This document shows positions 6,714 through 31,384 of a stretch of 31,384 bases of DNA, one piece after another (position 1 is the first letter of the stretch; the number at the start of each line of letters is the position of its first letter). This DNA is from a virus, in the IMG/VR virus record IMGVR_UViG_3300033148_007231, positions 1 through 31,384 of that record; one strand, 5' to 3'. A program made the position numbers and the translations under genes. The notes below the pieces were generated by a model that was not told the origin of the DNA, ran no database searches, and worked only from the letters and a program-made list of their open reading frames with translations.

Positions 6714-6917
6714 ATGTTGACGATCATAACATTTTTCATTCTCGGTTTGCTCGGATTGATAACAGCCATGATCGGGGCGTGGCTTTTGTGGCGAGTGTTC
6801 GTGACTGTCGCGCGCGCGGTGATATACATCTTGGGGATGAACGTTACCGCTCCCCCGCGTCGGGCTGGGGTCCGGCGTCGTCGGCGAGTTAAGACGTTTA
6901 CGATAAGAAAGGGATGA
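6714..6917 (+). CDS. Small membrane protein (67 aa)
   Basis: ATG 6714 follows GAGGATTGTAAC. Residues 2-41 are a long hydrophobic stretch (LTIITFFILGLLGLITAMIG then AWLLWRVFVTVARAVIYILG), enough for one or two transmembrane helices. A short basic tail (RRAGVRRRRRVKTF) would stay in the cytoplasm by the positive-inside rule. Its layout resembles small phage holins, but no lysis genes are next to it and the class is not proven. The stop overlaps the next ATG (ATGA). Confidence 0.7.
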   Translation: MLTIITFFILGLLGLITAMIGAWLLWRVFVTVARAVIYILGMNVTAPPRRAGVRRRRRVKTFTIRKG

Positions 6918-7291
6918 AATTGATAGCTGTAGTTACCGTCCTGTTGGTTTTTTCAAGCGCCGCGATTGCTATCTCAGCTATCGAAGGCGATTGGGTTCCG
7001 TTCATTATTGCTGTATCACTGACTGGAGTTTCTGCGCTTTTTCTTTTGTTCCGAGGGGCCATGTTGGTGTTGAAGCTGTGCCAAGCTTACCGTACTCACC
7101 GTAAGCTATACCAGGACGTGGAGGTACTGAAGGCGGCTGTGGGAGAGACTGGCTATTCTTGGGACGAAGCCCGTAACCGCGTCTACGCTTTTCCTAAACT
7201 TGTAGCATCAACGCACGGTGAAAAGTGTCCGATTGTTAATCGGAGGGTCGCAGGTTCGACCCCTGCCCGCGCAGGCATGGAGGCAACATGA
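6914..7291 (+). CDS. Two-helix membrane protein whose 3' end runs through a tRNA-like sequence
   Basis: ATG 6914 overlaps the upstream stop and follows AGAAAGGG. Two transmembrane helices are seen at residues 3-22 (LIAVVTVLLVFSSAAIAISA) and 28-50, then a charged soluble part (YRTHRKLYQDVEVLKAAVGE). The last 28 residues (from STHGEKCPIVNRRVAGSTPARAG on) are encoded by the tRNA-Asn-like sequence and have the look of translated tRNA. The ancestral C-terminus was therefore replaced or extended. The stop overlaps the next ATG, so translation through this region does fit the operon. Function unknown. Confidence 0.65.
   Translation: MKLIAVVTVLLVFSSAAIAISAIEGDWVPFIIAVSLTGVSALFLLFRGAMLVLKLCQAYRTHRKLYQDVEVLKAAVGETGYSWDEARNRVYAFPKLVASTHGEKCPIVNRRVAGSTPARAGMEAT
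7212..7274 (+). tRNA. Degenerate tRNA-Asn-like sequence (anticodon GTT) lacking a normal D-arm
   Basis: The anticodon arm TCCGA-TTGTTAA-TCGGA (anticodon GTT at 7235-7237), variable loop GGGTC and T-arm GCAGG-TTCGACC-CCTGC are intact. The 5' side is not: CGCACGG can pair with CCGCGCA only with A-C and C-A mismatches, and just nine bases remain before the anticodon stem, too few for a D-arm. No CCA is encoded. It is either a D-armless tRNA or the 3' part of a broken tRNA gene. Confidence 0.5.
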
Positions 7292-12494: not shown

Positions 12495-13121
12495 ATGAGT
12501 TGGCGATTGCGAAGCCCGAAGACGCTCGTCGGTTACTGGCCGCTTAACGGTCACGCCGAGGACGTATCCGGCCACGGTCTACACGGTGAGTGGTTCGGGG
12601 CCGAAGCGTACGCGCCATTCCTCAAAAACTCGAGGCAAGCTGGGGATTTTGATGGGGCAGACACGTACGTCCAACTCCCGCTCGCGGCGGCGAACTTCAT
12701 GAACGGGCAGACGGCGTTTTCGGTGGCGTTCTGGTTTTTCGCGGATGCGCTACAGGGATCGTTATTTTCTTTCCGGGATGGTATCGACGACGGCGTTTTC
12801 ATTGACAACCTGGACGCCGTCGCGTTTCAAGTTAACGCCGTTGAATCCGCCTCCGGGTCGGTATCTATCGGGTCATGGAACCACGTTGCGGCAGTTAAGT
12901 TGGCTGCCGGAGTTCAATCGTTATACTTAAATGGTGACTTAGTTGACACCGATGACAGTAGCGCTGAGGTATTAGCCGTCGAGGGGGCTCCACGGATTGG
13001 AACCGACTACGACGGGAGCGGCGACTTCAATGGTCGCTTGGGTGACTTCCGCCTCTACAACGTCGCCCTTACCCAGGATGAAATCCTCACCCTGATGCGC
13101 GCACCCGTACCGACGTACTAG
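12495..13121 (+). CDS. LamG/concanavalin A-like protein 3 (208 aa)
   Basis: ATG 12495 follows AAGTAAGGGGATCGT. It opens with LVGYWPLNGHAEDVSGHGLH, a textbook LamG start (W-x-L-x-x-x-x-D-x-S-x-x-x-x-G). It continues with DFDGADTYVQLPLAA, FSVAFWFFADAL and GSWNHVAAVKLAAGVQSLYL, and closes with GRLGDFRLYNVALTQDEI. The domain fills the whole protein, so it is a stand-alone LamG unit, probably an adhesin-like virion decoration or a piece of a fibre complex. Confidence 0.9.
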   Translation: MSWRLRSPKTLVGYWPLNGHAEDVSGHGLHGEWFGAEAYAPFLKNSRQAGDFDGADTYVQLPLAAANFMNGQTAFSVAFWFFADALQGSLFSFRDGIDDGVFIDNLDAVAFQVNAVESASGSVSIGSWNHVAAVKLAAGVQSLYLNGDLVDTDDSSAEVLAVEGAPRIGTDYDGSGDFNGRLGDFRLYNVALTQDEILTLMRAPVPTY

Positions 13122-13136
13122 AAAGGCGTATGTTAC

Positions 13137-15221
13137 ATGATCGCACAGCAACCGCTCCTCACCCGACCGCACCTCACCGACGCCAGCCTCGTGTTGTCTG
13201 TCTTGAGTCCCCTTTCCGTGGGCGGTGTTCGGGACGCCTCCCCGGCCGGGAACGACGGCACGCTTCACGGTACCCCCACCTTCGAGCGCGGGGGTGGACT
13301 CACTCTTGATGGCGTCAGTGACCGGGTTGACTTCGGCGATATCGGCAACATCCAGGAAGTTTCGATGTGGGTGAAGCCGGCGACTGTGGCGGAACAACTC
13401 TTCCAGATTGACAACACCGTGTACATCCATCTAGTCGCTGGAACGATCACTTATAACAATCTGAATGAAGTGGCTACGTTCGTCAACGGCCAGCCGAGCA
13501 AGACGCTGGTCCCGGGCGAGTGGCAGCATGTGGTTTTCCAATTTGAGGTGGACGACGCCAACAACTTCGAGCTTGCATATGACGGTGCGAACTACGGGGC
13601 CTTGGGTGTCCGCGATCTCAGGGTTCGGACATCATGGTCGACGGCCGATGAAGTCTACCAGAATGCAGCACAACTCATGGTTGGGGTGCTGTTTTCATTC
13701 AACGGCTACGTCTATGCCGGCGTTTGCGACAACGTTGCGAACATCGGCAAGATATACCGCTCGGGGAATGGCGCGACGTGGACGCTCGTGTATTCCGCTC
13801 CGGCAGGCCACGAAGCTATCGAATCGGCATTCGTCTGGAACCACGAACTGTATATACCTGTCCATTCGTGGTCCGGCTCGGATTGCTTCCTCGCCCACAG
13901 CGCCGACGGTGTTACGTGGACCGAGGACGCCCCGCTCACGGATGAGCGGTACATCCGCGCCGGGACGATGTTCGGCGGGTATATGTATATGGTCGTGCGC
14001 AACCAGGACACCACACATCGGATCGTCCGAACGACCGACATGTCAACGCTCGAAACGGTCTACAACTCGACCGGCGGTTCGTGGGGAATTCACGCCTGGA
14101 CTGACGGCTACATCTACTGCGGTGATGAAGACAACGTGATTCGTTCGGCGGATGGGACGACGTGGGCCATCGTGGATGCCAACTATGGTATCGATAACGA
14201 CGATGTGCCGATGACGTTTGCCACGTTCAAGGGAAAACTCTACGCTGGTACGACCCACCACGGCCATATACTGAGCACGCCGGACGGGACGACATGGACA
14301 ACCGAAGCCGTCTATGCCTGGAACGATTCCATTCTCGACTTGGTCCCCATGGGCGACGTGCTGGTCGCCGCGTGCTACGGTTCGGTCGTGGGGGTGACGA
14401 ATGGTCTGCGGGGTTCAACAGACGGTTCGACGTGGAACCAGTACCTGGACGTCAATGGGGCTGGGATATTCTGCTGCTGCGATCACGGCGGGACGCTCTT
14501 CGCCGGAGCGCGGCTTGCCTCGGGCGCCACGATATACCGATGCAATTTGTCCCGACCCGTGTATGATTTCAATGCGGGCGTCCCGGATGGTAGTCTTGCA
14601 CTTCACCTCTTGAAGCATCAGAACGACCTCTCGCGCTTCGCGGTTACGTTCGGCAATGTGAACGGGGTCGTCCTGGGGCGCCAAATGGAATTCGACGGAA
14701 TCACGAACTACCTCCCCATGACGGTGGCGGACTGGCGGGGCTCCGACGAGGTCGGGACTATCTGCGCCTGGGTCACCCTCGACGCCATCGGGGCGTACCG
14801 GACCATCTTCGGTTCGTGCGATGAGGCCGCGGACATCAACAAGTTGCTTTTCTGGGTGACCGATGGGGGCTTGATCGCCGTTCAATCCGAGTCCGGGGGT
14901 GGGGGCCACAACAACATTCTGGGCTCGACCGTGTTGGGGGCGAACCGCTGGTACCATGTCGCGGTCGTCTCGGACGGTACGCAATACCTTCTCTACGTGA
15001 ACGGCGTTGCCGAGACACTGACCGTCAGTTCCGGAGACAACAATGGGTGCTGGCTGGCTGACGCCGCCAACAGAGATAGCGTCACGGTGGGGGTGCGCAG
15101 CAAGAACGCCGGACAAGATTACTACTTCAATGGTTCCATCAAAGACCTCCGCTACTACTCCGAGGCCAAGTCGGCGGATTGGATCGCCGATCTCTATAGG
15201 AAGACGAGGATTTTCTTCTGA
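13137..15221 (+). CDS. LamG - beta-propeller - LamG protein (694 aa), likely fibre/receptor-binding
   Basis: ATG 13137 follows AGAAAGGCGTATGTTAC. Residues about 15-190 are a LamG domain (LTLDGVSDRVDFGDIGNIQE, WQHVVFQF, LGVRDLRVRTSWSTADEVY). Residues about 190-510 hold several repeats ending in Asp-box-like strings (HSADGVTW, RSADGTTW, STPDGTTW, GSTDGSTW), which mark a sialidase/BNR-type beta-propeller. Residues 520-694 are a second LamG (MEFDGITNYLPM, NRWYHVAVVSDGTQYLLYVN, SIKDLRYYSEAKSADW). No sialidase Arg triad is evident, so binding is likelier than hydrolysis. It is the last and largest of the LamG series and the best candidate for a receptor-binding or glycan-binding virion protein. Confidence 0.85.
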   Translation: MIAQQPLLTRPHLTDASLVLSVLSPLSVGGVRDASPAGNDGTLHGTPTFERGGGLTLDGVSDRVDFGDIGNIQEVSMWVKPATVAEQLFQIDNTVYIHLVAGTITYNNLNEVATFVNGQPSKTLVPGEWQHVVFQFEVDDANNFELAYDGANYGALGVRDLRVRTSWSTADEVYQNAAQLMVGVLFSFNGYVYAGVCDNVANIGKIYRSGNGATWTLVYSAPAGHEAIESAFVWNHELYIPVHSWSGSDCFLAHSADGVTWTEDAPLTDERYIRAGTMFGGYMYMVVRNQDTTHRIVRTTDMSTLETVYNSTGGSWGIHAWTDGYIYCGDEDNVIRSADGTTWAIVDANYGIDNDDVPMTFATFKGKLYAGTTHHGHILSTPDGTTWTTEAVYAWNDSILDLVPMGDVLVAACYGSVVGVTNGLRGSTDGSTWNQYLDVNGAGIFCCCDHGGTLFAGARLASGATIYRCNLSRPVYDFNAGVPDGSLALHLLKHQNDLSRFAVTFGNVNGVVLGRQMEFDGITNYLPMTVADWRGSDEVGTICAWVTLDAIGAYRTIFGSCDEAADINKLLFWVTDGGLIAVQSESGGGGHNNILGSTVLGANRWYHVAVVSDGTQYLLYVNGVAETLTVSSGDNNGCWLADAANRDSVTVGVRSKNAGQDYYFNGSIKDLRYYSEAKSADWIADLYRKTRIFF

Positions 15222-17213: not shown

Positions 17214-18626
17214 ATGGGTCTTCGTAACTGGTTGAAGCGCCGCAAGCAGATGAAATTTCAAACGGCGCTTCAAGAGTTCTTGGGTAAGGCGTCTGAAGAC
17301 CTCGCGGCTGAAGGTGGATGGAGCGTGGCCGGGAGTCTACTCAATACACGGGGCGATAGCCCGTGGACTACGTATAGCACGAGCGAGGCCGAAAACCTCT
17401 TTAACACTATGTCAATTATCTTTGCGTGCGTGAAGAAAATCGGGGACACGGCCCCGACCATCCCGTATACTGTAGTTTCCTACGACGCTGCCGGGGAACG
17501 CGTCGAACGCGCTGATCACCCATACCTCAAGGTCTTCGAGCGTCCCAACCAAGCCATGTCTTACTCAGAATTTCTCTACAACGTCGTCACCCACCTAGAA
17601 CTGACGGCCGAGAGCTACATTTGGAAGACTCGAAACCGGGCTGGGTTCGTGGACGGTCTATGGCCGTTCCCAACGAGTTGGATCACGATGGAGGTTGATC
17701 GCCAAGGTATACGGTCGCACTACCTCGTCCAGCGTGGGGACTACCGACAGGAAATTCCGCTCGATGATATGATCTACATTCATTACCCCGACCCGGCTAA
17801 CCCATACGCATCGGCCGGACCGACGCAAGCGTGCATCAGAGATACTCAGATAGATGAGGCTCGGGCCGAATACCTTATCGAGCTGCTCAACAACATGCAC
17901 ATCCCAGGGCCGATTCTTACGCAGAAGACGGGATGGACCGAACCCCAGATGGCGCAAGTTCGCCGTCTTCTCCGCGACAAGATCGGAAAAGGTAAGCGCG
18001 GTAGCCCGCTATTCATCGGCGGGGAAGGCGTGAGCGCAGATTACAAAAATCCGCTCGCAGACCTCGACTGGCCTGGGACAGCAGGTCTCGCTGAGACTCG
18101 GATTTGCTCTACGTTTGAGGTGCCACCGATCCTCATTCACCTTCGGTCCGGTCTTGAACGAGCGACGTATTCCAATTATGAAACGGCAAAAAAGACGTTC
18201 TACTCAGGCAAGATGACTTCGGTATCGCAGAAGGTCGCCGACGGGTTTAGCCTCGGTCTCCTCCACGCGGAGGGGGAAGAAGAGTTCTGGCTTGAGCCGG
18301 TTTTTGACGACGTTGCTGAAATGCAGGAGGATCAGGATTCCATTCACGAACGCGCCCGCGCCGACTGGCAGGTGGGTGGGTTGACGCTTGACGAGTTCCT
18401 TGAAAAAATCGGGACCGAGGTTGTTGGTGGGGAGGCCGGGAAGGTCCGCGTTCGTCCCGCGAACCTCGTAGAGTTTACCCCCGGGGAAGAACCCGATATT
18501 CCAGATACCATGCCCGAGGACGAAGACGTTGAGGACGTTGAAGACAATGAGCCCGCGCCGGAAGATGAAATCGATACCGAAGAAACCGTGGAGGACGAGG
18601 AGGTTGAAGATGGCGAGGGAAAGTAA
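17214..18626 (+). CDS. Portal protein, HK97 family (470 aa)
   Basis: ATG 17214 follows GAGAGGAGCACGGG, 12 bases after terL. The portal forms the dodecameric ring at the capsid vertex. Family marks are NTMSIIFACVKKIGDTAPTI, DHPYLKVFERPNQAMSYSEF, HLELTAESYIWKTRN, then the GGEGVSADYKNPLADLD region, TRICSTFEVPPILIHL and TYSNYETAKKTFY. The last 60 residues are a strongly acidic tail (PEDEDVEDVEDNEPAPEDEI), longer and more acidic than usual. Its end overlaps the next gene. Confidence 0.93.
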   Translation: MGLRNWLKRRKQMKFQTALQEFLGKASEDLAAEGGWSVAGSLLNTRGDSPWTTYSTSEAENLFNTMSIIFACVKKIGDTAPTIPYTVVSYDAAGERVERADHPYLKVFERPNQAMSYSEFLYNVVTHLELTAESYIWKTRNRAGFVDGLWPFPTSWITMEVDRQGIRSHYLVQRGDYRQEIPLDDMIYIHYPDPANPYASAGPTQACIRDTQIDEARAEYLIELLNNMHIPGPILTQKTGWTEPQMAQVRRLLRDKIGKGKRGSPLFIGGEGVSADYKNPLADLDWPGTAGLAETRICSTFEVPPILIHLRSGLERATYSNYETAKKTFYSGKMTSVSQKVADGFSLGLLHAEGEEEFWLEPVFDDVAEMQEDQDSIHERARADWQVGGLTLDEFLEKIGTEVVGGEAGKVRVRPANLVEFTPGEEPDIPDTMPEDEDVEDVEDNEPAPEDEIDTEETVEDEEVEDGEGK

Positions 18627-19443
18627 GATACAAGATCACATCGCCGTTTTTGGAATGGGGGTCGTTGGCGGCGCGTTTGTCAACACGCTCAAGCGACGGG
18701 AGTACGCCGGTCCCATTCTGATCCACGACCCGAAGAAGGGATATGAAATACGTCCGGAAGAACTCGCTCCGGTCAAAATCGCATTCGTGTGCGTTCCGAC
18801 CCCAACGGGTGTCGACGGGCGCCAAGACCTCTCGGTAGTTCAAGATGTGTTTAGGTTTCTCTGCGAAGCCAAGTGCGTGGGGTTCGCCGGGGTGGTTTGC
18901 ATTCGATCTACGGTAACGCCACTGAACGTTCGTATGCTTGAGCGTGGATACCCATTGGCATTTACGACGCTGCCTGAGTTCCTTACCGAACGCGACGCCT
19001 ATGAGGAATCCTTCGCTAGCCCGTTTCTCATCGTCGGGAGTTGTGGGAAGTACGCGGAGGTGCTTGCCCCATTCATCAACACTGTCTGGCCGGACTCAAA
19101 GGTGTTTTGGGTCACGCCAGCCGGGGCAATGATGATTAAGTACGCGATCAACGTCAATCTCGCCGTGCGAGTATCGACCATGAACGAACTCAAGGCTTAC
19201 TGGGATACTCACGGGGACGAACCGTGGGATCGAGTGGTGCCACCTGGGATTCGGCTGGATTGTAAGCGTCTTGGGGATAGTCACTTTGACGTTCCTGGGC
19301 CGGATGGAAAACGCGGCTTCGGTGGTAAATGCTTACCGAAGGACGTGCAAGCAATTGCTGTCGATAGTTTTCTTGAGGGTGTGCTGTGCGGGGCGCTCAG
19401 GGTAAACGCTTTCGTGAGGGAGGAAGACGATGCCAAACGGTGA
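18610..19443 (+). CDS. Short UDP-sugar (UDP-glucose/GDP-mannose-type) dehydrogenase
   Basis: ATG 18610 follows GACGAGGAGGTTGAAG and overlaps the portal stop by 17 bases; a longer frame upstream is portal shadow. NAD-binding GMGVVG (15-20), VPTPTGVDGRQDLSVVQ (63-79), IRSTVTPLN, TTLPEFLTERDAYE (119-132), Lys177 in the central helix (MMIKYAINVN) and the nucleophile GFGGKCLPKD (Cys241) are all present. This is the chemistry of UDP-glucose to UDP-glucuronate or of similar sugar-nucleotide oxidations. At 277 residues it stops soon after the catalytic cysteine and lacks most of the C-terminal UDP-binding domain of ordinary enzymes (roughly 390-440). It sits oddly between portal and MuF genes. Confidence 0.85.
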   Translation: MARESKIQDHIAVFGMGVVGGAFVNTLKRREYAGPILIHDPKKGYEIRPEELAPVKIAFVCVPTPTGVDGRQDLSVVQDVFRFLCEAKCVGFAGVVCIRSTVTPLNVRMLERGYPLAFTTLPEFLTERDAYEESFASPFLIVGSCGKYAEVLAPFINTVWPDSKVFWVTPAGAMMIKYAINVNLAVRVSTMNELKAYWDTHGDEPWDRVVPPGIRLDCKRLGDSHFDVPGPDGKRGFGGKCLPKDVQAIAVDSFLEGVLCGALRVNAFVREEDDAKR

Positions 19444-21833: not shown

Positions 21834-23270
21834 ATGACCCCCGTTTCCAAGATCGTGGACATGAAGGGCCTTCGGGCAAAGCTCGAAGCGAAGATGGCCG
21901 AAATCTCGGCATGCAAGACGGTCCTTGAAGAGGCCGAGAAGGCTGAGGACGCCGAGGCGATTCAAGCGGCGGCCGAACAGCTCGATCAGTTCGGGAAGGA
22001 CTTCGACGAGATTGCAACACAGCTGGACACAGCCAAGGCCGACGTCAACCGGAAGAATGTTCTCGCTCGGGTCCGTGAGCTTTCGCAACCGGCGCCCGCG
22101 CAACCGAACATCGCAGATCAGACCGTTCCGGCGAAGCCGAAGAACCACGACGAAGAGACGCAGACGAAGCGCGACCTCTTCTTCAAGTTCATGGGCGCGA
22201 AGGGCAGCGCCGCCGGACTTTCCGGCCAGGAGCTTGAACTTCTGACGCCAAAGAGCGAGAAGCTTCGTGAGCACGGCAAGGCAGACGCGCCGTGCGTGGT
22301 TATCCCTAGGAGTATGACGGCAAAGTTCCTCGGCCGGAACTACGCAAGAGCGTTCGGTATCGAATCCAAGGACATTCTCAGCGTCAATGATGCCGACACG
22401 AACCCTTCCCGCGCGAACTTCCTTTTCGCTGCGGAGTTCATGGCGTCAATGCAAGACCTCCCCGGTCCCGCTCCTGTGATGCTCAACCGGGTTAACATCG
22501 TCCCGTCGGCTACTGGAACGATCACGTGGCCGTCGCTCACCCAAACCGATACCGCGACCGGGGCCGGTGAGTTCGGTGGGGTCTCGATGACGTGGATAAC
22601 CGAGGGCGCGAAGAAGCAAGAGACCGAGCCGGAATTCGAACAGATCACGATCCAGACGTACGAAGTCGCCGGGTATACGGAGGTCTCGGAACGGGCCCTT
22701 AGCCGGAGTCAAATCCAGCTTGAGGCGTACCTCAACAAGCTCTTCAGCGACGCGATGAAGTACGAGCTTGACCGGGTCATCCTTCGTGGTACTGGTGTTG
22801 CCCAACCGGCCGGGATCATTGGCGGCGCTGGCGTCCGTACTGTGCCGCGAGCAACCGCTGGCGCCGTGGGTTACGCCGACTTCGTCGCGTTGAAGCACGA
22901 GGTTCGCTCCTACCATCGTTCTGGCGCGATCTTCGTCCTTCACGATGACGTTGAAGAGGCGAACGAGCAGGCGACCGATACGCTCGGCCGACCGCTCTTT
23001 ACCGCGGCCGTCTCCGGCGGGGCTTACGACCGAATCACTGGTGTCCCGTACGAGGTGTCTTACAACTGTCCGGCCCTCGGTGTGTCTGGTGACGTTGTTT
23101 ACGGCAACCCGCGCAACTACACGCTCGCGATGGAGGAGGAGATCGTTCTTGCGCGGAGCGACCACTACAGATTCCAGAGCGATCTTGTCGCGTTCCGTAT
23201 TTACGCCGTTGCTGGCGGAAGGCCGATGCAGCCCAGGGCATTTGCTTACCTGGACGACGTAGAGAGCTAG
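21834..23270 (+). CDS. Major capsid protein, HK97 fold (478 aa)
   Basis: ATG 21834 follows ACAGGAGTAGGCT. Residues 1-90 are a coiled-coil scaffolding (delta) region (LRAKLEAKMAEISACKTVLE), normally removed by the protease encoded just upstream. The core shows the HK97 pattern: NRVNIVPSATGTITWPSLTQ, then SMTWITEGAKKQETEPEFEQ, VAGYTEVSERALSRSQIQLE with YLNKLFSDAMKYELDRVILR, GTGVAQPAGI, and the closing LAMEEEIVLARSDHYRFQSD with FRIYAVAGGRPMQPRAFAYL. It forms the icosahedral shell. A strong hairpin terminator follows at 23285-23333. Confidence 0.93.
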   Translation: MTPVSKIVDMKGLRAKLEAKMAEISACKTVLEEAEKAEDAEAIQAAAEQLDQFGKDFDEIATQLDTAKADVNRKNVLARVRELSQPAPAQPNIADQTVPAKPKNHDEETQTKRDLFFKFMGAKGSAAGLSGQELELLTPKSEKLREHGKADAPCVVIPRSMTAKFLGRNYARAFGIESKDILSVNDADTNPSRANFLFAAEFMASMQDLPGPAPVMLNRVNIVPSATGTITWPSLTQTDTATGAGEFGGVSMTWITEGAKKQETEPEFEQITIQTYEVAGYTEVSERALSRSQIQLEAYLNKLFSDAMKYELDRVILRGTGVAQPAGIIGGAGVRTVPRATAGAVGYADFVALKHEVRSYHRSGAIFVLHDDVEEANEQATDTLGRPLFTAAVSGGAYDRITGVPYEVSYNCPALGVSGDVVYGNPRNYTLAMEEEIVLARSDHYRFQSDLVAFRIYAVAGGRPMQPRAFAYLDDVES

Positions 23271-23284
23271 ACGTAACATAGCTT

Positions 23285-23333
23285 AACGGTTTGGGGCTCC
23301 CCGCCCCCTCGCCCGCGGGGAGCCCCAGCCGTT
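23285..23333 (+). terminator. Strong hairpin downstream of capsid gene
   Basis: GGGGCTCCCCGC (23293-23304) pairs perfectly with GCGGGGAGCCCC (23315-23326), 12 pairs with a 10-base loop. AACGG (23285-23289) with CCGTT (23329-23333) extend it across small bulges. Only a short T-run follows, so termination may be partial, setting a step-down between abundant capsid mRNA and the glycosylation genes. Confidence 0.7.
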
Positions 23334-23362: not shown

Positions 23363-25399
23363 ATGATGTATCGAGTCGTTAGACCTTTTGAGTATACAGG
23401 TCCAACCGGACAGCGAACCGCTGCCCAAACCGGTAGTCTCGTCGACATCCAAATGCAGAAGCACGTCGACGATCTTATGCGGGAAGGAAAGGTCGCACCA
23501 CACGTAGCACGTAGTCTCTCTTGCAACAACGTACTACCGGTAGCTGGAAAGTGGGCGCGTACACTTCGAGTTGGAATATGGTTAAAAACGAGCGTACACT
23601 ACTCTGGCGGACGCATTCATATGTATCAGTATGCGTGGTCCTTAGCGAATGCCGGGGCTGAGGTATACTTTGTTACCAACGCCGTTCCGAAGTGGTCCCA
23701 CGACTACCCAGCGAACAAAAATCTGACGCTGCTCATTGATGGGGAAGATTCCCAACCCCCGGAAGACCTCGACCTCGTTGTCACGGACAGTAAGAGCTCC
23801 TTCGGGTTTAGGGCGTTCGATTGGCACAAGCATCATCCGTGGGTTCCCTTCGTGTGCATGAACTTTGAAACGCCAAATTGGGTCATGGAATTCGACGCCG
23901 GTAAGGGACGTTCACTTATGGGAGATCAAACGGTCTTCGAGCACGCAGACCTGCTCATGGCCAACTCCCGTGAATCCCTAGTATATCTTAAGAAGTGGAT
24001 GAACGCCGACGGGAAGCACACGGCCGTTATGACTCCAGCCATCAACAACACCGCAATTGTGAAAGCCAACAACGTTATACCGCAGTGGCTCCAAAAAGTG
24101 GAGCGTCCGTTTGCCGTATGGTGCGCGCGAGGCCAAGCGTATAAAGGTTTTGATGTTGCCGTGAAATCGGTGTTCGATCTCGATACACCGTTTGATCTCG
24201 TGATCTTCGGTTCATGTTCTAGTGGTATTCCTGACGAGACCGATAAGCACGCGGTCGTCAACAAGAACGGACTACCCGACGTCGATAAATTTGCGGCAAT
24301 GCGTTTAGCCAGGATGGTTCTCGCCCCATCGCTCTTCGAGGGTTTTGGTATGATTCCGAGTGAGGCCTTGGCTTGCGGAACTCCCGTGATAGCCTACGAC
24401 CTTCCCGTTCTTCGTCAAGAGTATGGCGACACCCCCGGCCTACAACTCATCAAGCATAACGATGCAAAGGCCTTCGCCCAGGCTGTCCGGGAAGCGGCTA
24501 CCGCCCCCAAGCCAACGCTCGACCCGAAACCGATCATCCAACGCTTTGGGCTCAACGCGATGGCAGAACAGATAGACCACATCCCATACCACACAATCAA
24601 GCGTCCAACAATTACGGCCCAGCTCGTGGCCTACTGGGGATTCCTTCCCGAAGCCGTCGAATCAATCTATAATCTGGTCGACCAAATCGTCATTGCCTAC
24701 GGTAGGGTGAACCACGCTCCGGTGCTCGACGATGGCAGTTTAGCGCTCATAAAATCGCTGCCCGACCCAGATGGAAAAATCACGCTTCGGGTAGAAGAGC
24801 GGTGGCCGGATAAGCGCGAAATGCGGGTTTGGTGCTCTTCGCAGGCCGTTGGTAATAGGATGTTGATACTCGATGGCGACGAAATATGGGATGGCCTTGA
24901 TGAGTGGATACTATCTGGTAATATCTGGGGGTCTCCCCGTTGGGTAAACCTTTGGCATGGTCCAGGCCATTGGGTACACGACGCTAAGATCGGAACGTCT
25001 CCCCGCTGGGGAGGACCGTTGAAACCCTTCGGGAGTCCGTGCCCGCATTATCGTTGGTCTCAATGGCGACGATCTTATGGGTGGAAGAAGCATCATAGCC
25101 CGGTCGACCAGGACGGGAATAACCTCACAGCCCGAAATGAGGGCCCGGCCGTAAGCGTCCCGGCCTGTACGATATATCATCTCGGCCATGCTCTACCTAC
25201 TGCAGTTATGAAGGCGAAGCATCGTTTCTACCTTGAGCGTGACGGAAACGATGCCCAGCGGCAGAGGCGACAAACCGCTTGGCATAATTGGGATGGAAAT
25301 CTGGGGGATTGTGGTGATGGTGTCGTCTCACCCGTAGCGTGGGAGCTACCGCCGTTGGTGCGGAAGGCGTTCGAACGAATGGACCAAGCAAACAAATGA
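23363..25399 (+). CDS. Bifunctional glycosyltransferase (GT4-like + GT2-like) with fused N-terminal domain (678 aa)
   Basis: ATG 23363 (or ATG 23366) follows GGGAGGGGCCTTCCG. Residues 1-50 (YRVVRPFEYTGPTGQRTAAQ then VDDLMREGKVAP) resemble the small stand-alone proteins often encoded just after phage capsid genes. Residues about 68-410 are a GT-B transferase: SVHYSGGRIHMYQYAWSLAN, then LAPSLFEGFGMIPSEALACG with the ExxxxxxxE pair of GT4. Residues about 435-600 look like a GT-A/GT2 domain (ITAQLVAYWGFLPEAVESIY, LILDGDEIWDG with the DxD metal site). It probably adds two sugars in sequence. Coupled to the following genes by overlaps. Acceptor unknown. Confidence 0.85.
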   Translation: MMYRVVRPFEYTGPTGQRTAAQTGSLVDIQMQKHVDDLMREGKVAPHVARSLSCNNVLPVAGKWARTLRVGIWLKTSVHYSGGRIHMYQYAWSLANAGAEVYFVTNAVPKWSHDYPANKNLTLLIDGEDSQPPEDLDLVVTDSKSSFGFRAFDWHKHHPWVPFVCMNFETPNWVMEFDAGKGRSLMGDQTVFEHADLLMANSRESLVYLKKWMNADGKHTAVMTPAINNTAIVKANNVIPQWLQKVERPFAVWCARGQAYKGFDVAVKSVFDLDTPFDLVIFGSCSSGIPDETDKHAVVNKNGLPDVDKFAAMRLARMVLAPSLFEGFGMIPSEALACGTPVIAYDLPVLRQEYGDTPGLQLIKHNDAKAFAQAVREAATAPKPTLDPKPIIQRFGLNAMAEQIDHIPYHTIKRPTITAQLVAYWGFLPEAVESIYNLVDQIVIAYGRVNHAPVLDDGSLALIKSLPDPDGKITLRVEERWPDKREMRVWCSSQAVGNRMLILDGDEIWDGLDEWILSGNIWGSPRWVNLWHGPGHWVHDAKIGTSPRWGGPLKPFGSPCPHYRWSQWRRSYGWKKHHSPVDQDGNNLTARNEGPAVSVPACTIYHLGHALPTAVMKAKHRFYLERDGNDAQRQRRQTAWHNWDGNLGDCGDGVVSPVAWELPPLVRKAFERMDQANK

Positions 25400-26337
25400 A
25401 GGTAACGGTCACTGGTGGCGCTGGCTTCATCGGAAGCCACCTCACGGAAGCGCTCTTTCGTGCTGGGCATCAGGTCCGAGTAGTAGACGACCTGTCGACA
25501 GGGAACGTAGAAAATCTTAAGGCCATCTACGGGGTGATCAACTTTGTCAAGGGCGACGTTTCTACCCCGAGAGGAGCCGCGCAAGCGTGTAGCGGAGTCG
25601 ATGTTGTGTATCACTTGGCTGCGGCTCCTAGCGTGCCGCTCTCGTTGAAGAACCCGAAGGCGGCTCGGCGAGCCTGCCTCGGAGGAACATTTGAGGTAAT
25701 CAAAGCAGCAGACGTGCTTCACGTGAAGCGCCTCGTCTTCGCTTCAACCTGCGCGGTATACGGAACTCCGACGACCGGGATCGCGGCCGAAAGCGACTGT
25801 GTCAATCCGTTGAGCCCGTATGCCGAAAGTAAGTTTGCCGGCGAGCAGTTACTGAAGGTCGTTGGCGAGGTTCGTGGTGGGCTTGATACGGTTTCCCTAC
25901 GGTTGTTCAACGTGTACGGACCGCGTCAACGCACGAGCGGTGGATACGCCGCGGCCATTCCAGCGTTTGCAGACGCTTATCGTTCGGGGTGCGTTCCTAC
26001 GATTTTTGGGGACGGGGAACAAACAAGGGACTTCGTTTTTGTGGGCGACGTCGCACGGGCGTTCGTCGAAGCGGGACAACACAGAGAGCCGTTCTGCGGG
26101 GACACGATCAACATCGGCAGTGGGGTAGAACGAAGTATCTTATCGGTTTGCGACGCGGTTCGTTTCTGGACCGCGGGGGTTGGCGAGCCAAACTACAGTG
26201 ACCCGGTCCCAAGAGAGACAAGGAGGATCGTCGCAAACACGGAGAAGGCGAGTAGCGTCCTAGGATTCAATACCTCAGTGAAGTTAGCGACCGGTATTGA
26301 ATCGTACGTCGCTTGGCGCCGGGAGAACCAAAAGTGA
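25396..26337 (+). CDS. NAD-dependent sugar-nucleotide epimerase/dehydratase (313 aa)
   Basis: ATG 25396 overlaps the glycosyltransferase stop (ATGA). Extended SDR: GGAGFIG (7-13), DDLSTGN (31-37), STCAVYG (117-123), Tyr142/Lys146 (SPYAESK), LRLFNVYGPRQ and DFVFVGDVARAF are GalE-type landmarks. At 313 residues it fits UDP-glucose 4-epimerase or UDP-GlcNAc epimerase-like enzymes; it could also be a dehydratase, and the substrate cannot be read from the sequence. It would supply the third nucleotide sugar for the cassette, alongside GDP-fucose and the product of the 18610 dehydrogenase. Confidence 0.9.
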   Translation: MKVTVTGGAGFIGSHLTEALFRAGHQVRVVDDLSTGNVENLKAIYGVINFVKGDVSTPRGAAQACSGVDVVYHLAAAPSVPLSLKNPKAARRACLGGTFEVIKAADVLHVKRLVFASTCAVYGTPTTGIAAESDCVNPLSPYAESKFAGEQLLKVVGEVRGGLDTVSLRLFNVYGPRQRTSGGYAAAIPAFADAYRSGCVPTIFGDGEQTRDFVFVGDVARAFVEAGQHREPFCGDTINIGSGVERSILSVCDAVRFWTAGVGEPNYSDPVPRETRRIVANTEKASSVLGFNTSVKLATGIESYVAWRRENQK

Positions 26338-27029
26338 GTGCTTGGGTTTTGGTCACCGTTCGGGGGCGACAGGAGCTCACCAGACGGTGCCTTGATAGTC
26401 TCATCGAGACGACGCCGAGTTTGAAGCTCATCGTCATAGATAACGGGAGCCGGGATGAAACGCTCAACGATCTATACAAGAGATTCCGTCTCGGACAGAT
26501 TCACCGTCTAGTATGCAACAAGGTCAATACCGTTCCACAATGGGAGAAGGGTTACGCGATCCGGCAGGCCGCGCGACTCCTCAAAGATGAGACGGCTGAC
26601 CTGTTTGCGTGGGTCGACAACGACATTATCGTGAAGCCCGGATGGATCGCGGCCGCTCAGTTTGTTCTTCAACATCTTCAGAACGTCGAGGTTTGCTCGA
26701 TGCACAACGACCCCGTCCAAGAGAAGCGCCACAAAACTGTGTCGATAACCGAGGTTGGACCGTACAGCGCTCGAATGAAGAAAACGGCTAACGGGGCGAT
26801 ATGGGTCATGCGCTGGGAATTTTTTGAGAAGAACGGTCTACCCCCGGTTGGTAAGGGAATTAACCGGGAAGGGACCGAAGACTGGTTTTATAGTGACAAG
26901 TTCCAACAGGGAGGTAACCTCAGGTTCGCTGTCGTCGATGGGTTCTCCGAACATCTTGGGTATCAAACAAGCCTCAAGCGGCAAGCAATTGCGGCGACCA
27001 AAGGTTACCCGGTGGGGGTAGATAAATGA
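26334..27029 (+). CDS. Family 2-like glycosyltransferase (231 aa)
   Basis: GTG 26334 overlaps the epimerase stop (GTGA). SAWVLVTVRGRQELTRRCLD with LKLIVIDNGSRDET is the nucleotide-binding start of GT2 enzymes. LFAWVDNDIIVKPGW (near 88-102) contains the metal-binding DxD (DND), and GAIWVMRWEFFEKNG then EGTEDWFYSDKFQQGG form the acceptor/catalytic end with an ED pair. It transfers one sugar; donor and acceptor are unknown. Overlaps by four bases with the next gene. Confidence 0.88.
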   Translation: MSAWVLVTVRGRQELTRRCLDSLIETTPSLKLIVIDNGSRDETLNDLYKRFRLGQIHRLVCNKVNTVPQWEKGYAIRQAARLLKDETADLFAWVDNDIIVKPGWIAAAQFVLQHLQNVEVCSMHNDPVQEKRHKTVSITEVGPYSARMKKTANGAIWVMRWEFFEKNGLPPVGKGINREGTEDWFYSDKFQQGGNLRFAVVDGFSEHLGYQTSLKRQAIAATKGYPVGVDK

Positions 27030-27730
27030 AACTCTTAATCAAATTCCCCACGCGTGGCCGCCCAGCGAAGGCCATGGACGTTCTTCGTCGATATCGCAAC
27101 CAACTCTCCGGGGCACACGACGTTTTCTTTCTCGTCACGTCTGACCAAGACGATCCGACGATGAACACCGCGTCTATGCGGCAACAAATGACAGATTTCT
27201 TCCGAAGCGTCCCACGGGGTGATGGGGTCTTCGCGGTTGGAAAAAGTAGAACGAAAGTCCAGGCGATCAACGCAGACATGAACCGCGCGCCCGACGATTG
27301 GAACGTGGTGCTGCTCGCCTCCGATGACATGATTCCAATCGTTCCCCATTACGACGCTATCATCGACAAGCACATGCAAGCGCACTTCCCCGATTTTGAT
27401 GGGTGCCTTTGGTTCTACGATGGCTATACCAAGAAAATTTGTACGCTCGTCGTGATGGGACGGACGTACTTCGCTCGGTTCAACTATATCTACCACCCGG
27501 ATTATCATTCGTTATGGTGCGATAATGAATGGACCGCGGTGGCACAAATCAACGGCAGGTTGCCGTTCATTGATCAAACAATCATACGCCACGATCATTT
27601 CGCCAATACCGGAGCGGTCAAGATAGATGCGGTTTACCGCAGGAACGAGACGTTCAATACAAAAGACCACACCCTTTTCAACGTACGTAAAGCCCAAGGC
27701 TTCTTCCTCGGGACGGGGCTCTCGCAATGA
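27026..27730 (+). CDS. Probable GT-A-type glycosyltransferase (234 aa)
   Basis: ATG 27026 overlaps the preceding stop (ATGA). It begins KLLIKFPTRGRPAKAMDVLR, like phage GT2-related proteins. The segment VVLLASDDMIPIVPHYDAII holds a DD in the DxD position, and the later YHPDYHSLWCDNEWTAVAQI and IIRHDHF supply a second acidic/histidine site. No transmembrane segment is seen. Compared with the neighbouring GT2s the donor-site motif is less typical, so a non-catalytic homologue remains possible. The stop overlaps the next gene. Confidence 0.75.
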   Translation: MKLLIKFPTRGRPAKAMDVLRRYRNQLSGAHDVFFLVTSDQDDPTMNTASMRQQMTDFFRSVPRGDGVFAVGKSRTKVQAINADMNRAPDDWNVVLLASDDMIPIVPHYDAIIDKHMQAHFPDFDGCLWFYDGYTKKICTLVVMGRTYFARFNYIYHPDYHSLWCDNEWTAVAQINGRLPFIDQTIIRHDHFANTGAVKIDAVYRRNETFNTKDHTLFNVRKAQGFFLGTGLSQ

Positions 27731-28314
27731 TGTTAAGTATTCTCATCTGTTCGCTAACCAGCCGGGCGACCCTTCTCAGTCGGGTTATGCGGCAGCTCAA
27801 TTCCCAGATTGCTGCGGGTAAACGGCAAAGTACGGTTGAGGTACTTCCTTATATAGACGGTGGGGAGTTAACCGTTGGTGCGAAGCGAAACGCTTTGCTC
27901 GACCGGGCTGGGGGGGAGTGGGTTTGCTTCATCGACGACGATGACTACGTTTCTGATTCTTACGTTCAGCTCATCACGGAGGCCATCGAGCAGCATCAGC
28001 CGGACTGTGTAGGAATCACCGGGCAAATACTCTGGAAGGGTACGTGGTGCCGCTTCGAACACTCGTTGCGCTATTCTACGTACGCAACCATTTCAGGTCC
28101 GGTTTTCATTCGGCCCCCGAATCACCTTAATCCGATTCGAACAAGATTCTCCCGAGAGATTCGCTTCCCCGAACAAAACCGTGGGGAGGACACGGCTTTT
28201 GCGATGGCCCTACAGAATTCCGGAAGGCTCCAACGCGAGCATTTCATTTCGGACATTGTCTATTTCTACGTACCGTCGAGGGCGGAAGACCGGGAAACCC
28301 CACGAGTAGGCTAG
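27727..28314 (+). CDS. Family 2 glycosyltransferase (195 aa)
   Basis: ATG 27727 overlaps the previous stop. MLSILICSLTSRATLLSRVM opens a short GT2. TVGAKRNALLDRAGGEWVCF leads into IDDDDYVSDSYVQLI (near 75-90) with the DDDD donor-metal site; RGEDTAFAMAL (near 155) is the catalytic ED block. It transfers one sugar; specificity is unknown. Third transferase in the coupled run of overlapping genes; after it a 15-base gap leads to the methyltransferase. Confidence 0.88.
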   Translation: MMLSILICSLTSRATLLSRVMRQLNSQIAAGKRQSTVEVLPYIDGGELTVGAKRNALLDRAGGEWVCFIDDDDYVSDSYVQLITEAIEQHQPDCVGITGQILWKGTWCRFEHSLRYSTYATISGPVFIRPPNHLNPIRTRFSREIRFPEQNRGEDTAFAMALQNSGRLQREHFISDIVYFYVPSRAEDRETPRVG

Positions 28315-28329
28315 AAGGGTAAGAAACAC

Positions 28330-28932
28330 ATGTACTCACAACGTAACGAAGAGCAAACAATACTCGCCTGGTTTGCGAATCATCCACCCGCCGGGCCGGG
28401 AAGGTTCCTCGATATCGGGGCATACAACGCCATAGTCTTTTCTAATACCAGGAAGTTATTTGAACTCGGCTGGTCCGGGGTACTCGTTGAACCAGCCCCG
28501 GTTCAGGTTGTTAAGCTCGCTGAGGACTACAGGGGGGAAGACCGAATTACCATCGTTAACTGCGCCCTCGCGGAAGCCACGAAGTTTCAAGAATTTGGAA
28601 TCTGTCCCGACGCCTTGTCTTCCCTTGACAAGAAACATCAGCAGCTGTGGACGAAGAATTACAAGACCCACTTCGATCAGGTTCAGATATTCACCGTCGC
28701 TATTCAACCGTTCCTTGAGCGATTTGGTCCGCACTTTGATTTTGTCGACATCGACGTTGAGGGGGAAGCTAACTGGAATCTCATTCGAACAATCGACTTC
28801 GGGATGATCGGGGCGTCCCTGCTTTGTCTTGAATACGGTAAGCACCGGGATGACGTCTTGAAATACGTTACCGGGTGGGGATATCGGTTGGAGTCTGATA
28901 CAGGTGAAAACCTACTCGTCGGAAAGGGCTAG
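28330..28932 (+). CDS. FkbM-type SAM methyltransferase (200 aa)
   Basis: ATG 28330 follows AGAAGGGTAAGAAACAC. FLDIGAYNAIVFSNTRKLFE (26-45) is the SAM-binding motif I, GVLVEPAPVQVVKLAEDY the second strand, and DFVDIDVEGEANWNLIRTID the FkbM-defining DxxGxE region. These enzymes usually O-methylate sugars or hydroxylated products; here the likely target is a sugar added by the neighbouring transferases. It is one of three methyltransferases in the cassette. Confidence 0.88.
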   Translation: MYSQRNEEQTILAWFANHPPAGPGRFLDIGAYNAIVFSNTRKLFELGWSGVLVEPAPVQVVKLAEDYRGEDRITIVNCALAEATKFQEFGICPDALSSLDKKHQQLWTKNYKTHFDQVQIFTVAIQPFLERFGPHFDFVDIDVEGEANWNLIRTIDFGMIGASLLCLEYGKHRDDVLKYVTGWGYRLESDTGENLLVGKG

Positions 28933-28936
28933 CTTC

Positions 28937-29614
28937 GTGAAGAAGCATTGCATAGTCAACGTTGCTACCGGGTCGAACAACGTACGGGGGCAGAAGCGGC
29001 TCGGACAGAGTCTTCGCAAACATGGTTACCAAGGGGACTTTTTGAAATGGACTGACAGCTATCCGGCTCGGAGCCCGACGCATCAGCAAGTCCCGTATGC
29101 TTTCAAGTTCTACGCGTTGATGGAAGCGATACGGCGAGGGTATGATACGATCCTTTGGCTCGATGCTTCCTTCTGGGCGGTGAAAGACCCAATGGAAGTT
29201 CTTCGCGTGATCGACGCCAGGGGTTACGCGCTTTGGCTCTGCGGGTTTTCGGTCGGTCAATGGACGAAGGACGCCGCGCTTCCAAAGTTGGGCATCACGC
29301 GGGAAGAGGCCTTCAACATTCCGCTCATTATGGGCGGGGCAATCGGGATAAGCATCCGGGATCGCCGAGCGTTAGATTTCACGACCGATATGTTTCGGTA
29401 CGCAACCGACGGGGTGACCTTCCCCGGAGCTTGGGATAACAAGAACCAACAAGTATCCACCGACCCCAGGGTTCGGGGACATCGGCACGATCAACCCCCG
29501 ATCAGCGTCGCTGCAATGCGCCGGGGCATGGAACCGTTCGGGTGCCCATACCTGATTGCGTATTGGACAGAAAAGATCGCGGACGAAACCGTGTTCGTCT
29601 GCAAGGGAATGTGA
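28937..29614 (+). CDS. Putative glycosyltransferase-fold protein (225 aa)
   Basis: The GTG at 28937 with GGAAAGGGCTAGCTTC ahead is preferred over the GTG at 28904, which lies inside the methyltransferase. KKHCIVNVATGSNNVRGQKR, then VPYAFKFYALMEAIRRGYDT and ILWLDASFWAVKDP (near 82-95) have the look of a GT-A fold with a D-A-S/D-x-x metal motif. IPLIMGGAIGISIRDRRAL resembles the acceptor loop of capsular or galactosyl transferases. The family is not certain, but co-location with clear transferases supports sugar transfer. Confidence 0.7.
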   Translation: MKKHCIVNVATGSNNVRGQKRLGQSLRKHGYQGDFLKWTDSYPARSPTHQQVPYAFKFYALMEAIRRGYDTILWLDASFWAVKDPMEVLRVIDARGYALWLCGFSVGQWTKDAALPKLGITREEAFNIPLIMGGAIGISIRDRRALDFTTDMFRYATDGVTFPGAWDNKNQQVSTDPRVRGHRHDQPPISVAAMRRGMEPFGCPYLIAYWTEKIADETVFVCKGM

Positions 29615-30342
29615 TGAATAAATTCGTTGAACGTTTCGGTTCCCGTTCTGGTAAACCGGCGTTGATTGTGGCGTCCGGACCGTCCGTGCAAGGCCTTGAC
29701 CCGAACCGGGCGAAGCGCTGCGTCGTAATCGCAGTCAACGCTGGAATCCTCTCGGTACCGGAGGCAGACTTCTTTTTCTCGTGCGACATTGGCGTGCTGT
29801 CTTTTGAATACTGGAATGAGGTTTGCAAAGGCGCGTACCCGGTTCTCTTGGACCCGCAGGGGTGCGCGGTCGAATCGTTTTATCGACCCGGACTGACAGA
29901 GGAGCGGTTTTTTCCATTCTCTCGGGCCAAGACTCGAAGCTTCAACGGTGAGACGTTGATCTGGGGAATCAACTCGGCCCACGCCGCCACGCACTTCGCG
30001 CATCTCTTGGGTTGTGAACCAATATACCTAATTGGTTGTGACTGCAAGTACAAGAACGGCAATAAGTACGGCTGGGAATTAAACAACGACGAGCGGGGGC
30101 GGCACAAATCTGGCGCCCGGTCCTTGTGGATCGGATCAAATCGGAAAATCGGTCGGCCTATGGGAGACCGCGAATATGCCGTCGGGGCTAACGGAATCAA
30201 GGATGGGATATTGGCAAGCGGGGTAAACGAATGGAGACGAATCGTTGAGGTAAACCCGCACGTTGATATCCGTGATGCGTCGAACGGAGCCCTTGCTGAG
30301 TTTGTAAAGCAGGTTAGTCTAGAGGAGGTCTACGGTGAGTGA
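29614..30342 (+). CDS. DUF115-like / 6-hydroxymethylpterin-kinase-like protein (242 aa)
   Basis: ATG 29614 overlaps the preceding stop (TGATG). SRSGKPALIVASGPSVQGLD (10-29) and RCVVIAVNAGILSVPEADFF are the start of the DUF115 (MAF/glycosyltransferase-like) family, and FAHLLGCEPIYLIGCDCKYK is its second conserved block. Family members include motility-accessory and sialyltransferase-like proteins that act on sugars. Exact activity cannot be stated; a sugar transferase or glycan-linking role in the cassette is inferred. Confidence 0.8.
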   Translation: MNKFVERFGSRSGKPALIVASGPSVQGLDPNRAKRCVVIAVNAGILSVPEADFFFSCDIGVLSFEYWNEVCKGAYPVLLDPQGCAVESFYRPGLTEERFFPFSRAKTRSFNGETLIWGINSAHAATHFAHLLGCEPIYLIGCDCKYKNGNKYGWELNNDERGRHKSGARSLWIGSNRKIGRPMGDREYAVGANGIKDGILASGVNEWRRIVEVNPHVDIRDASNGALAEFVKQVSLEEVYGE

Positions 30343-30910
30343 CCTTCTTGCGGCCGAAAAGGCTAAGTACGACCAGATATGGCGTAAGTCCAGGGGGGCA
30401 TACTCAGCTTCATGTCCGGAGGTCATTTTCCTCAGCACTCGTCTCCCGAACGAACATTTGGTCGTGGGTGATTGGCTGATAGTCGGGAGCGGCGACGGAA
30501 CTGGATATCGCTGGTTGCAGAACAAGCAAAAGCGAAAGCTTTGGGCCTGCGACCTCAGTAGCGTCGTGGGTAGTTTTTACCCACGGAACTACTTCGTTGC
30601 CTGTCCAGCCCACGCCATTCCACACCCAACGAATCGGTTCGACGCCGTGCTCTGTATAGACGTCATCGAGCACATCCCACCGGACCTCGTACGACCGTCG
30701 ATTGCCGAAATGATGCGTGTTCTACGTCCGGGAGGTTCCCTCTTCATACAGGCGCGTTGTGCCCCAAGCGTCTTTGCCCCCGGGCTTCACCTTACGGTCG
30801 AAAATCACATCTGGTGGAGGGGAGTTTTTTCTGAAGTCGGAAAAATCCAGTGGGGGTTGCGAACCTCGCTTGATGAGGCCGCACAAATACGAAAGGATAA
30901 TGTCGCGTGA
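30335..30910 (+). CDS. Class I SAM-dependent methyltransferase (191 aa)
   Basis: GTG 30335 follows TAGAGGAGGTCTACG and overlaps the end of the preceding gene. VGDWLIVGSGDGTGYRWLQN (44-63) is motif I. FDAVLCIDVIEHIPPD (102-117) and VLRPGGSLFIQAR (129-141) are the Methyltransf_11 signatures. The substrate is probably a sugar hydroxyl, given context; other small molecules are possible. The stop overlaps the GTG of the next gene. Confidence 0.88.
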   Translation: MSDLLAAEKAKYDQIWRKSRGAYSASCPEVIFLSTRLPNEHLVVGDWLIVGSGDGTGYRWLQNKQKRKLWACDLSSVVGSFYPRNYFVACPAHAIPHPTNRFDAVLCIDVIEHIPPDLVRPSIAEMMRVLRPGGSLFIQARCAPSVFAPGLHLTVENHIWWRGVFSEVGKIQWGLRTSLDEAAQIRKDNVA

Positions 30911-31384
30911 AAACCCGAACGACGTTACCCCACGAAGAGGTTCCGGCCGGGGAGATGGATTGGCTTCGAAAGGTGTTGAAATTTGGGCTCTGCCGACCGA
31001 ATACGTTACTGACAACGTATGGCATCACCCGCCGGGTGGTCGAAGACAAAATCCCGGGCGACCTTGTTGAGTGCGGGGTGTTTGCTGGCGCCCAGGCCGC
31101 GGTCATGGCGCACGTGTGCTGTGGATTCGAAGATACCCGGCGGAACGTTCATCTTTTCGATTCCTTCCTAGGAATTCCCCACGCCGGAGCGCGCGATACG
31201 GACAACATCGACAATACCCTTTTCAATCACGGCCGAGACGGGGTGCTCAAAACTACTGGGATAGCAGCTTGTTCAATGAGGCAAGTCATTACAAACATGG
31301 CCGCGTGGCAAGTCAATCCGAACATGCTCGTCTATCATGCTGGGTGGTTTCAGGATACCATCTCGCAGTCTGTGCCGGCGCTCG
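30907..31384 (+). CDS. TylF/MycF-type O-methyltransferase, 3' end cut by window edge
   Basis: GTG 30907 overlaps the upstream stop (GTGA). The reading frame stays open to the last base (159 codons). GDLVECGVFAGAQAAVMAHV (51-70) with HLFDSFLGIPHAG (82-94) match the TylF macrocin-O-methyltransferase family, whose members methylate deoxysugars using SAM and a metal ion. The later VYHAGWFQDTISQSVP is also typical. Methylation of a fucose or other deoxysugar fits the GDP-fucose pathway at 7821-9753. The C-terminus lies outside the window. Confidence 0.88.
   Translation, partial: MKTRTTLPHEEVPAGEMDWLRKVLKFGLCRPNTLLTTYGITRRVVEDKIPGDLVECGVFAGAQAAVMAHVCCGFEDTRRNVHLFDSFLGIPHAGARDTDNIDNTLFNHGRDGVLKTTGIAACSMRQVITNMAAWQVNPNMLVYHAGWFQDTISQSVPAL

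Follow-up and report, generated by a model that had tools for sequence, protein, structure and literature searches.

The window analysed here covers a virus record in full (31,384 bases), and its right half is the head block of a tailed phage, with genes for a large terminase, a portal, a UDP-glucose dehydrogenase-like protein, a Mu-F-like protein, an S78 protease and an HK97-type major capsid protein (MCP). From position 23363 to the end of the record there is a sugar-gene island, which opens with a gene that fuses a small N-terminal module (N-module) to two glycosyltransferase (GT) domains. The relevant features are:

18529-19443, + strand: UDP-glucose dehydrogenase-like gene in the head block, start uncertain (PF00984, PF03721; phrog_9148)
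21834-23270, + strand: HK97-type MCP, ending in ...YLDDVES (PF05065, E 8.8e-42)
23265-23267, + strand: codon of the MCP C-terminal serine, the proposed sugar acceptor
23285-23333, + strand: strong hairpin between the MCP and GT genes (92-nt gap, -47.2 kcal/mol, z -2.0)
23363-25399, + strand: fusion gene, N-module + GT4 + GT-A (GT2-like); 25 family members aligned
23363-23494, + strand: N-module, residues 1-44, related to small proteins whose genes lie between those of the MCP and the head-tail connector
23495-23557, + strand: low-confidence linker, residues 45-65 (pLDDT blocks of 65 and 54, below 50 at 48-54)
23558-24595, + strand: GT4/GT-B domain, residues 66-411, with E-x7-E at residues 326/334
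24611-25396, + strand: GT-A domain, residues 417-678, with D-x-D-E at residues 504-507
25396-26337, + strand: NAD-dependent nucleotide-sugar epimerase/dehydratase (PF01370, E 1.4e-56)
26313-27029, + strand: GT2 glycosyltransferase (PF00535, E 2.8e-9)
27026-27730, + strand: glycosyltransferase (phrog_14945, E 1e-15)
27727-28314, + strand: GT2 glycosyltransferase, homologue of Che8 gp108 (PF00535; blastp)
28330-28932, + strand: FkbM-type methyltransferase (PF05050, E 6.3e-9)
28904-29614, + strand: conserved island gene, with homologues in the loci L002 and L069 and no Pfam or PHROG matches
29542-30342, + strand: MptE-like/sialyltransferase-like protein (PF01973, phrog_4603)
30335-30910, + strand: SAM methyltransferase (PF08241, E 1.1e-12)
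30907-31384, + strand: TylF-like O-methyltransferase, cut by the end of the record (PF05711, E 2.2e-14)

The UDP-glucose dehydrogenase-like gene lies between the portal and the Mu-F genes, a place that it also has in L002. On the 5′ side of the terminase gene, 13137-15221 encodes a LamG/concanavalin-like protein (PF13385) and 12495-13121 a look-alike of it, as judged by eye; both products are candidate receptor-binding or surface proteins.

Regarding the fusion gene, its frame starts with the ATG at 23363, 92 bases 3′ of the end of the MCP gene, and runs without internal stops to the stop codon at 25397-25399, for a product of 678 amino acids. A sequence-only reading of this DNA had described a triple fusion in one chain, and the 678 residues do divide into a module of about 44 residues, a flexible linker, a GT4 domain of the GT-B type and a GT-A domain. 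The GT4 assignment was confirmed at two levels: the Pfam scan placed this half above the cut-off (PF00534, E 5.9e-14, 52.4 bits vs 26.4), and the GT-B part of the predicted model, which starts at about residues 65-69 and ends at 411, matches GT4 enzymes with a VIA Z of up to 30.6 (6kih). E-x7-E, the motif of the GT4 family, is kept in all 25 aligned members. The GT4 enzymes MshA, BshA and sucrose-phosphate synthase share with this half both the GT-B fold and E-x7-E; unlike them, with their small-molecule substrates, the enzyme of the window carries a second GT and a head module in the same chain.

As for the second transferase, proposed earlier to be a GT2, its fold is of the GT-A type with a D-x-D motif and agrees with GT2; in the Pfam scan, residues 417-678 had no match (for example to PF00535) up to E 0.1. 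The model of this half has a pLDDT of 90.6 and D-x-D-E is present in 25/25 aligned members; its best fold matches are ThuS/SunS (Foldseek E 1.8e-9; VIA Z 13.6), and polypeptide GalNAc-transferases are among the next ones. A comparison of the GT-A domain with the sequences of solved structures gave as its best match only GmaR, at E 0.34. SunS and ThuS are peptide S-glycosyltransferases that modify a cysteine of bacteriocins; among solved folds, theirs come closest to the GT-A domain, but the identity is 12-15% and the acceptor in the window would be a serine. From sequence and model, the product of the fusion gene is predicted to be a bifunctional glycosyltransferase, and this prediction shares the good confidence placed in the whole explanation set out below.

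The first 60 residues are not a part of the GT domain: the module takes up residues 1-44, pLDDT falls below 50 at 48-54, and the GT-B fold begins after that. In the model, the module has four strands and a helix (E-E-E-E-H) with a pLDDT of ~78; in a fold search with the full-length protein against viral models, glycosyltransferases filled the list, which left it without information on the module. Single-sequence Pfam and PHROG scans of the module gave no result, the best PHROG match (E 0.0026) being short of the usual threshold, and among the sequences of solved structures nothing was below E 0.25. A profile of 25 modules aligned end to end with eight phrog_2322 proteins (hhalign prob 96, score 40.4), and none of 200 column shuffles, the best of which scored 16.5, reached this score. 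The phrog_2322 gene lies between the MCP and the head-to-tail adaptor/connector in all eight phage regions read. The similarity of residues 1-44 to proteins of the head region, as first proposed, is borne out. By tblastn, the module of a relative found three matches at E 6-7 in 50,697 phage records, and two of them are the gene immediately 3′ of the MCP in Gordonia phages, that is, phrog_2322; a second module found no match, and a single-sequence scan with the MCP found no relative. A match in phage Stella (H7) lies on the strand opposite an annotated gene and was discarded as chance.

Phages chosen without reference to the module were compared as well. RavenCo17, chosen on its MCP alone, has phrog_9538 in the post-MCP place, and this gene was the best of 182 against the module; among 12 phages chosen by MCP similarity only, the top two of the 182 genes by hhalign lie directly after the MCP, and the same two rank first and third by hmmsearch. 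Taken together, the 12 post-MCP genes did not score higher than the remaining ones (Mann-Whitney p 0.19). The phrog_2322 and phrog_9538 proteins, such as gp8 of the Gordonia phage RayTheFireFly and RavenCo17 gp7, have the same N-terminal pattern of ~48 residues and the same post-MCP place; they differ in being standalone proteins of about 110-125 aa, with no enzyme fused. The "head-tail connector" label of these PHROGs appears to rest on position.

Standalone copies also occur closer to the family. In L112, which lacks the enzyme, the MCP gene is followed by a gene for 138 aa, a standalone module gene for 73 aa and then the connector; in L104 and L106, the place of this standalone gene is taken by the fusion of module and GT pair, and L106 has in addition a separate module gene 3′ of its MCP (hhalign prob 97 for the standalone copy of L106 and 79 for that of L112). 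Another small relative of the module is found just 5′ of the connector in 12 of the 14 loci read, L015 being a repeat of L003; these pre-connector proteins (11 sequences) match the module profile, with 0/200 shuffles reaching the score, while their match to phrog_2322 is weak (1/200). The resemblance to a small protein encoded after the capsid genes is therefore real, as judged by the profile-profile alignments and the standalone copies, although to call it "usually encoded separately", as the first description did, was too strong. Overall, a separate module of head-gene origin at residues 1-44, outside the GT domains, is supported by sequence and by model. A related observation concerns L034, where the gene at 6874-7179 (Pseudomonas phage PPpW-3 gp6; phrog_3281) is annotated as endonuclease VII and resembles a post-MCP small module with a helical end; this label may be wrong.

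Regarding the family, a Phage_capsid-type MCP is upstream in 33 of the 34 records that show the start of the fusion gene, sometimes with one gene between. The main model of the module matches in 26 of the 34, with the weakest match in L054 (domain E 0.17); 12 of these 26 had supplied rows to that same model. Records without such a match are L047, L050, L057, L058, L059, L060, L068 and L069. By hhalign, the modules of L057, L060 and L069 do match (0/100 shuffles) and L059 does not; those of L047 and L050 do not match the main profile (12/100 and 25/100 shuffles reach the score), and match instead a second post-MCP profile made of PPpW-3, M29 and CRP-811 (0/100 shuffles each; prob 90 for L047, weak for L050). 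The architecture varies as well: L004 has two modules in tandem; L047 (4984-7893) and L050 (4909-7782) encode single chains of ~950 aa, which, read by eye, have an extra GT2-like domain between module and GT4; and L059, where the coat gene could not be recognised as one of the same type, has the GT pair but no module. The module is present in nearly all members across 40-50% protein identity. In L007-L009, its dN of 0.04-0.07 vs a dS of 0.74-0.84 indicates purifying selection; between the window and L002, dS is saturated and the module has a dN twice as high as the GT domains. Two further genes were seen by eye in the relatives: in L003 (7259-8011) a kinase + nucleotidyltransferase look-alike placed after the MCP gene and before the fusion gene, and in L004 (1-3543) a Mu-F-like head protein frame of 1,180 codons with two intein-like insertions.

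The gap between the MCP and GT genes contains a long hairpin in all nine cases folded (the window, L002, L004, L007, L008, L011, L040, L046 and L051), with z from -0.6 to -5.0, at -2 or lower in six of them, and with a run of T after some; it may be an attenuator that holds the output of the enzyme below that of the capsid protein. Downstream, the islands of the relatives vary in content, and the ten proteins scanned include a sulfotransferase (L049), a polysaccharide pyruvyl transferase (L056), a sialyltransferase-like GT29 (L012) and methyltransferases. A GT pair that stays constant while its modifiers change would fit a surface glycan with a fixed core and variable ends.

As for the acceptor, the evidence comes from the C-termini of the virion proteins. 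In a first reading, all 19 MCPs ended in serine, and the residues before it differed. When the closed MCP frames in the enzyme loci were counted, 30 of 32 ended in serine, vs 1 of the 18 control MCPs, which come from other phages and are distant relatives; the exceptions are L050, which has the enzyme and an MCP ending in valine, and L057, in which the frame ends early and whose twin L058 has the serine. A scan of the 19 protein families found in at least 4 of 32 non-redundant loci, from which the near-identical loci L005, L014, L057 and L068 and the repeats of one contig were excluded, showed that only two families of the enzyme loci are nearly invariant for a terminal serine, the MCP (27/28) and the tail tube (9/9); the standalone pre-connector small gene came next (5/8), and the 16 remaining families had 13/210. 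The tail-tube gene of the window itself was not found within the record.

A search based on the MCP only returned 80 loci, in which the serine end was present in 30 of 31 with the enzyme and in 12 of 49 without it, some flanks being too short to rule out an enzyme farther away. After clustering at 90% (60 clusters), the counts were 23/24 with the GT and 8/36 without it (Fisher 6.8e-9), and, among the nearest relatives, 23/24 and 0/10; this near set is enriched for enzyme loci because the rows of the MCP query came from enzyme-bearing loci, and the counts are not independent events because the MCPs are homologous to each other. Tail-tube relatives in loci without the enzyme end in serine in one case out of five (L163), and the tail proteins of the control phages, as annotated, in one out of eight (Fayden). 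In L163, whose flank showed no member of this enzyme family, both the MCP (...ADRS) and the tail tube (...YYAS) have the serine, and another virion GT may be present. A different pattern is seen in L134, L135, L136 and L142, which lack the enzyme and whose MCPs have 7-9 serines in a row at the end, and in L134 (5984-6580) and L142 (5427-5906) the product of the next gene has a long serine-rich tail; these runs and tails are possibly another modified or displayed C-terminus.

Virion glycosylation in phages has been reported for a few mycobacteriophages, and it affects antibody recognition; that of mycobacteriophage Che8 was reportedly described by Freeman et al. in 2023. Passages of three papers (PMC11256854, PMC12619734, PMC12363180) report glycans on the capsid of Che8 and, for mycobacteriophages, on the capsid and the tail tube, in both cases at the C-terminus. 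In Che8, the MCP ends in ...NKTGS and the major tail protein in ...YSDGS, and the same end occurs in none of the seven other Che8 proteins read. Che8 resembles the system of the window in having a phage-encoded GT cluster and serine at the end of these two proteins, and its gp108 has a homologue in the island (27727-28314; blastp E 6e-23, 31% over 193 aa). It differs in that gp108-110 are encoded far from the head genes, at the opposite genome end, and showed no homology to the GT4/GT-A pair at the level tested; a module gene between the MCP and the adaptor is absent from Che8. Che8 and the family of the window, whose main enzymes differ, thus agree in the last residue of both proteins. No report of such a fusion or of the C-terminal serine sign was found in the open-licence literature.

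The explanation that we favour, with good though not full confidence, is that the fusion gene encodes a virion glycosyltransferase that would act on the C-terminal serines of the capsid and tail-tube proteins and start their glycans. The GT-A half would place the first sugar on the serine of the MCP and of the tail tube, and the GT4 half would add the next one; this order is suggested by the folds, because the nearest solved folds of the GT-A half act on peptides. The epimerase, the further GTs and the methyltransferases of the island, with sulfo- and pyruvyltransferases in the relatives, would then vary the glycan. That glycosylation occurs on the virion itself, as the sequence-only reading had suggested, is supported indirectly by the serine signature on the two proteins, by Che8 and by the sugar-modifying islands.

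The serine could instead be a structural trait of this MCP lineage with no relation to the enzyme, and indeed the MCPs are homologous and eight clusters without the GT have the same end; yet the tail tubes of the same phages have it in nine cases out of nine, both Che8 proteins have it, and the nearest MCPs without the GT never do (0/10), which makes this account unlikely. The serines also weigh against the two readings that move the sugar away from the virion, as neither explains them. Modification of host surface glycans by the island, for superinfection exclusion or serotype conversion, is within the reach of GTs of temperate phages according to passages of PMC12619734; against it, the fusion gene is located in the head block and, of the island genes that were scanned, none was recognisable as a flippase-type gene, so that this reading is given only a slight chance. 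Glycosylation of phage DNA, a role known for other phage GTs from excerpts of the literature, appears very improbable, since the island genes scanned included no recognisable base-modification gene and the GT-A fold is nearest to that of peptide GTs.

If glycosylation of the virion is accepted, the role of the module is still finely balanced. The module, derived from a protein encoded between the capsid and neck genes, might dock the enzyme on the head during assembly, in line with the tether to capsid or procapsid put forward by the sequence-only reading; where the module comes from, how widely it is kept and its low dN/dS suggest so, and we hold this to be a serious option, a little short of an even call. 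Almost as likely, the virion is glycosylated and the module is a passenger, fused by recombination at a hot spot between the MCP and the connector, with no targeting role: L112 has an unfused module gene in the same place, two sub-types of module are fused in different members (that of L047 being the PPpW-3/M29/CRP-811 type and not the main profile), and L059 and Che8 do without it. Against a passenger stand its retention in nearly all members over the 40-50% range of protein identity, its duplication in L004 and the low dN/dS in L007-L009. Docking is not required for virion glycosylation in general, because Che8 lacks the module and its GTs are distant from the head genes.

In conclusion, the fusion-gene system would be a form of phage virion glycosylation for which an acceptor can be proposed from sequence. 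A broader proposal, which we advance tentatively and regard as rather doubtful in its entirety, is that this phage family marks its MCP and tail tube, the shell proteins it makes most of, with a C-terminal serine, that the captured head module is a docking tag coupling glycosylation to head building, and that mycobacteriophages use the same mark with other enzymes, which would make a serine-ended MCP together with a serine-ended tail tube the genomic sign of a glycosylated virion. If this is true, glycosylation of the virion would be spread through diverse uncultured phages and would be readable from genomes by a one-residue sequence sign on the capsid and the tail tube; the design of the enzyme in this family may let it travel on the head, and the acceptor site, like the targeting step, would be directly testable.
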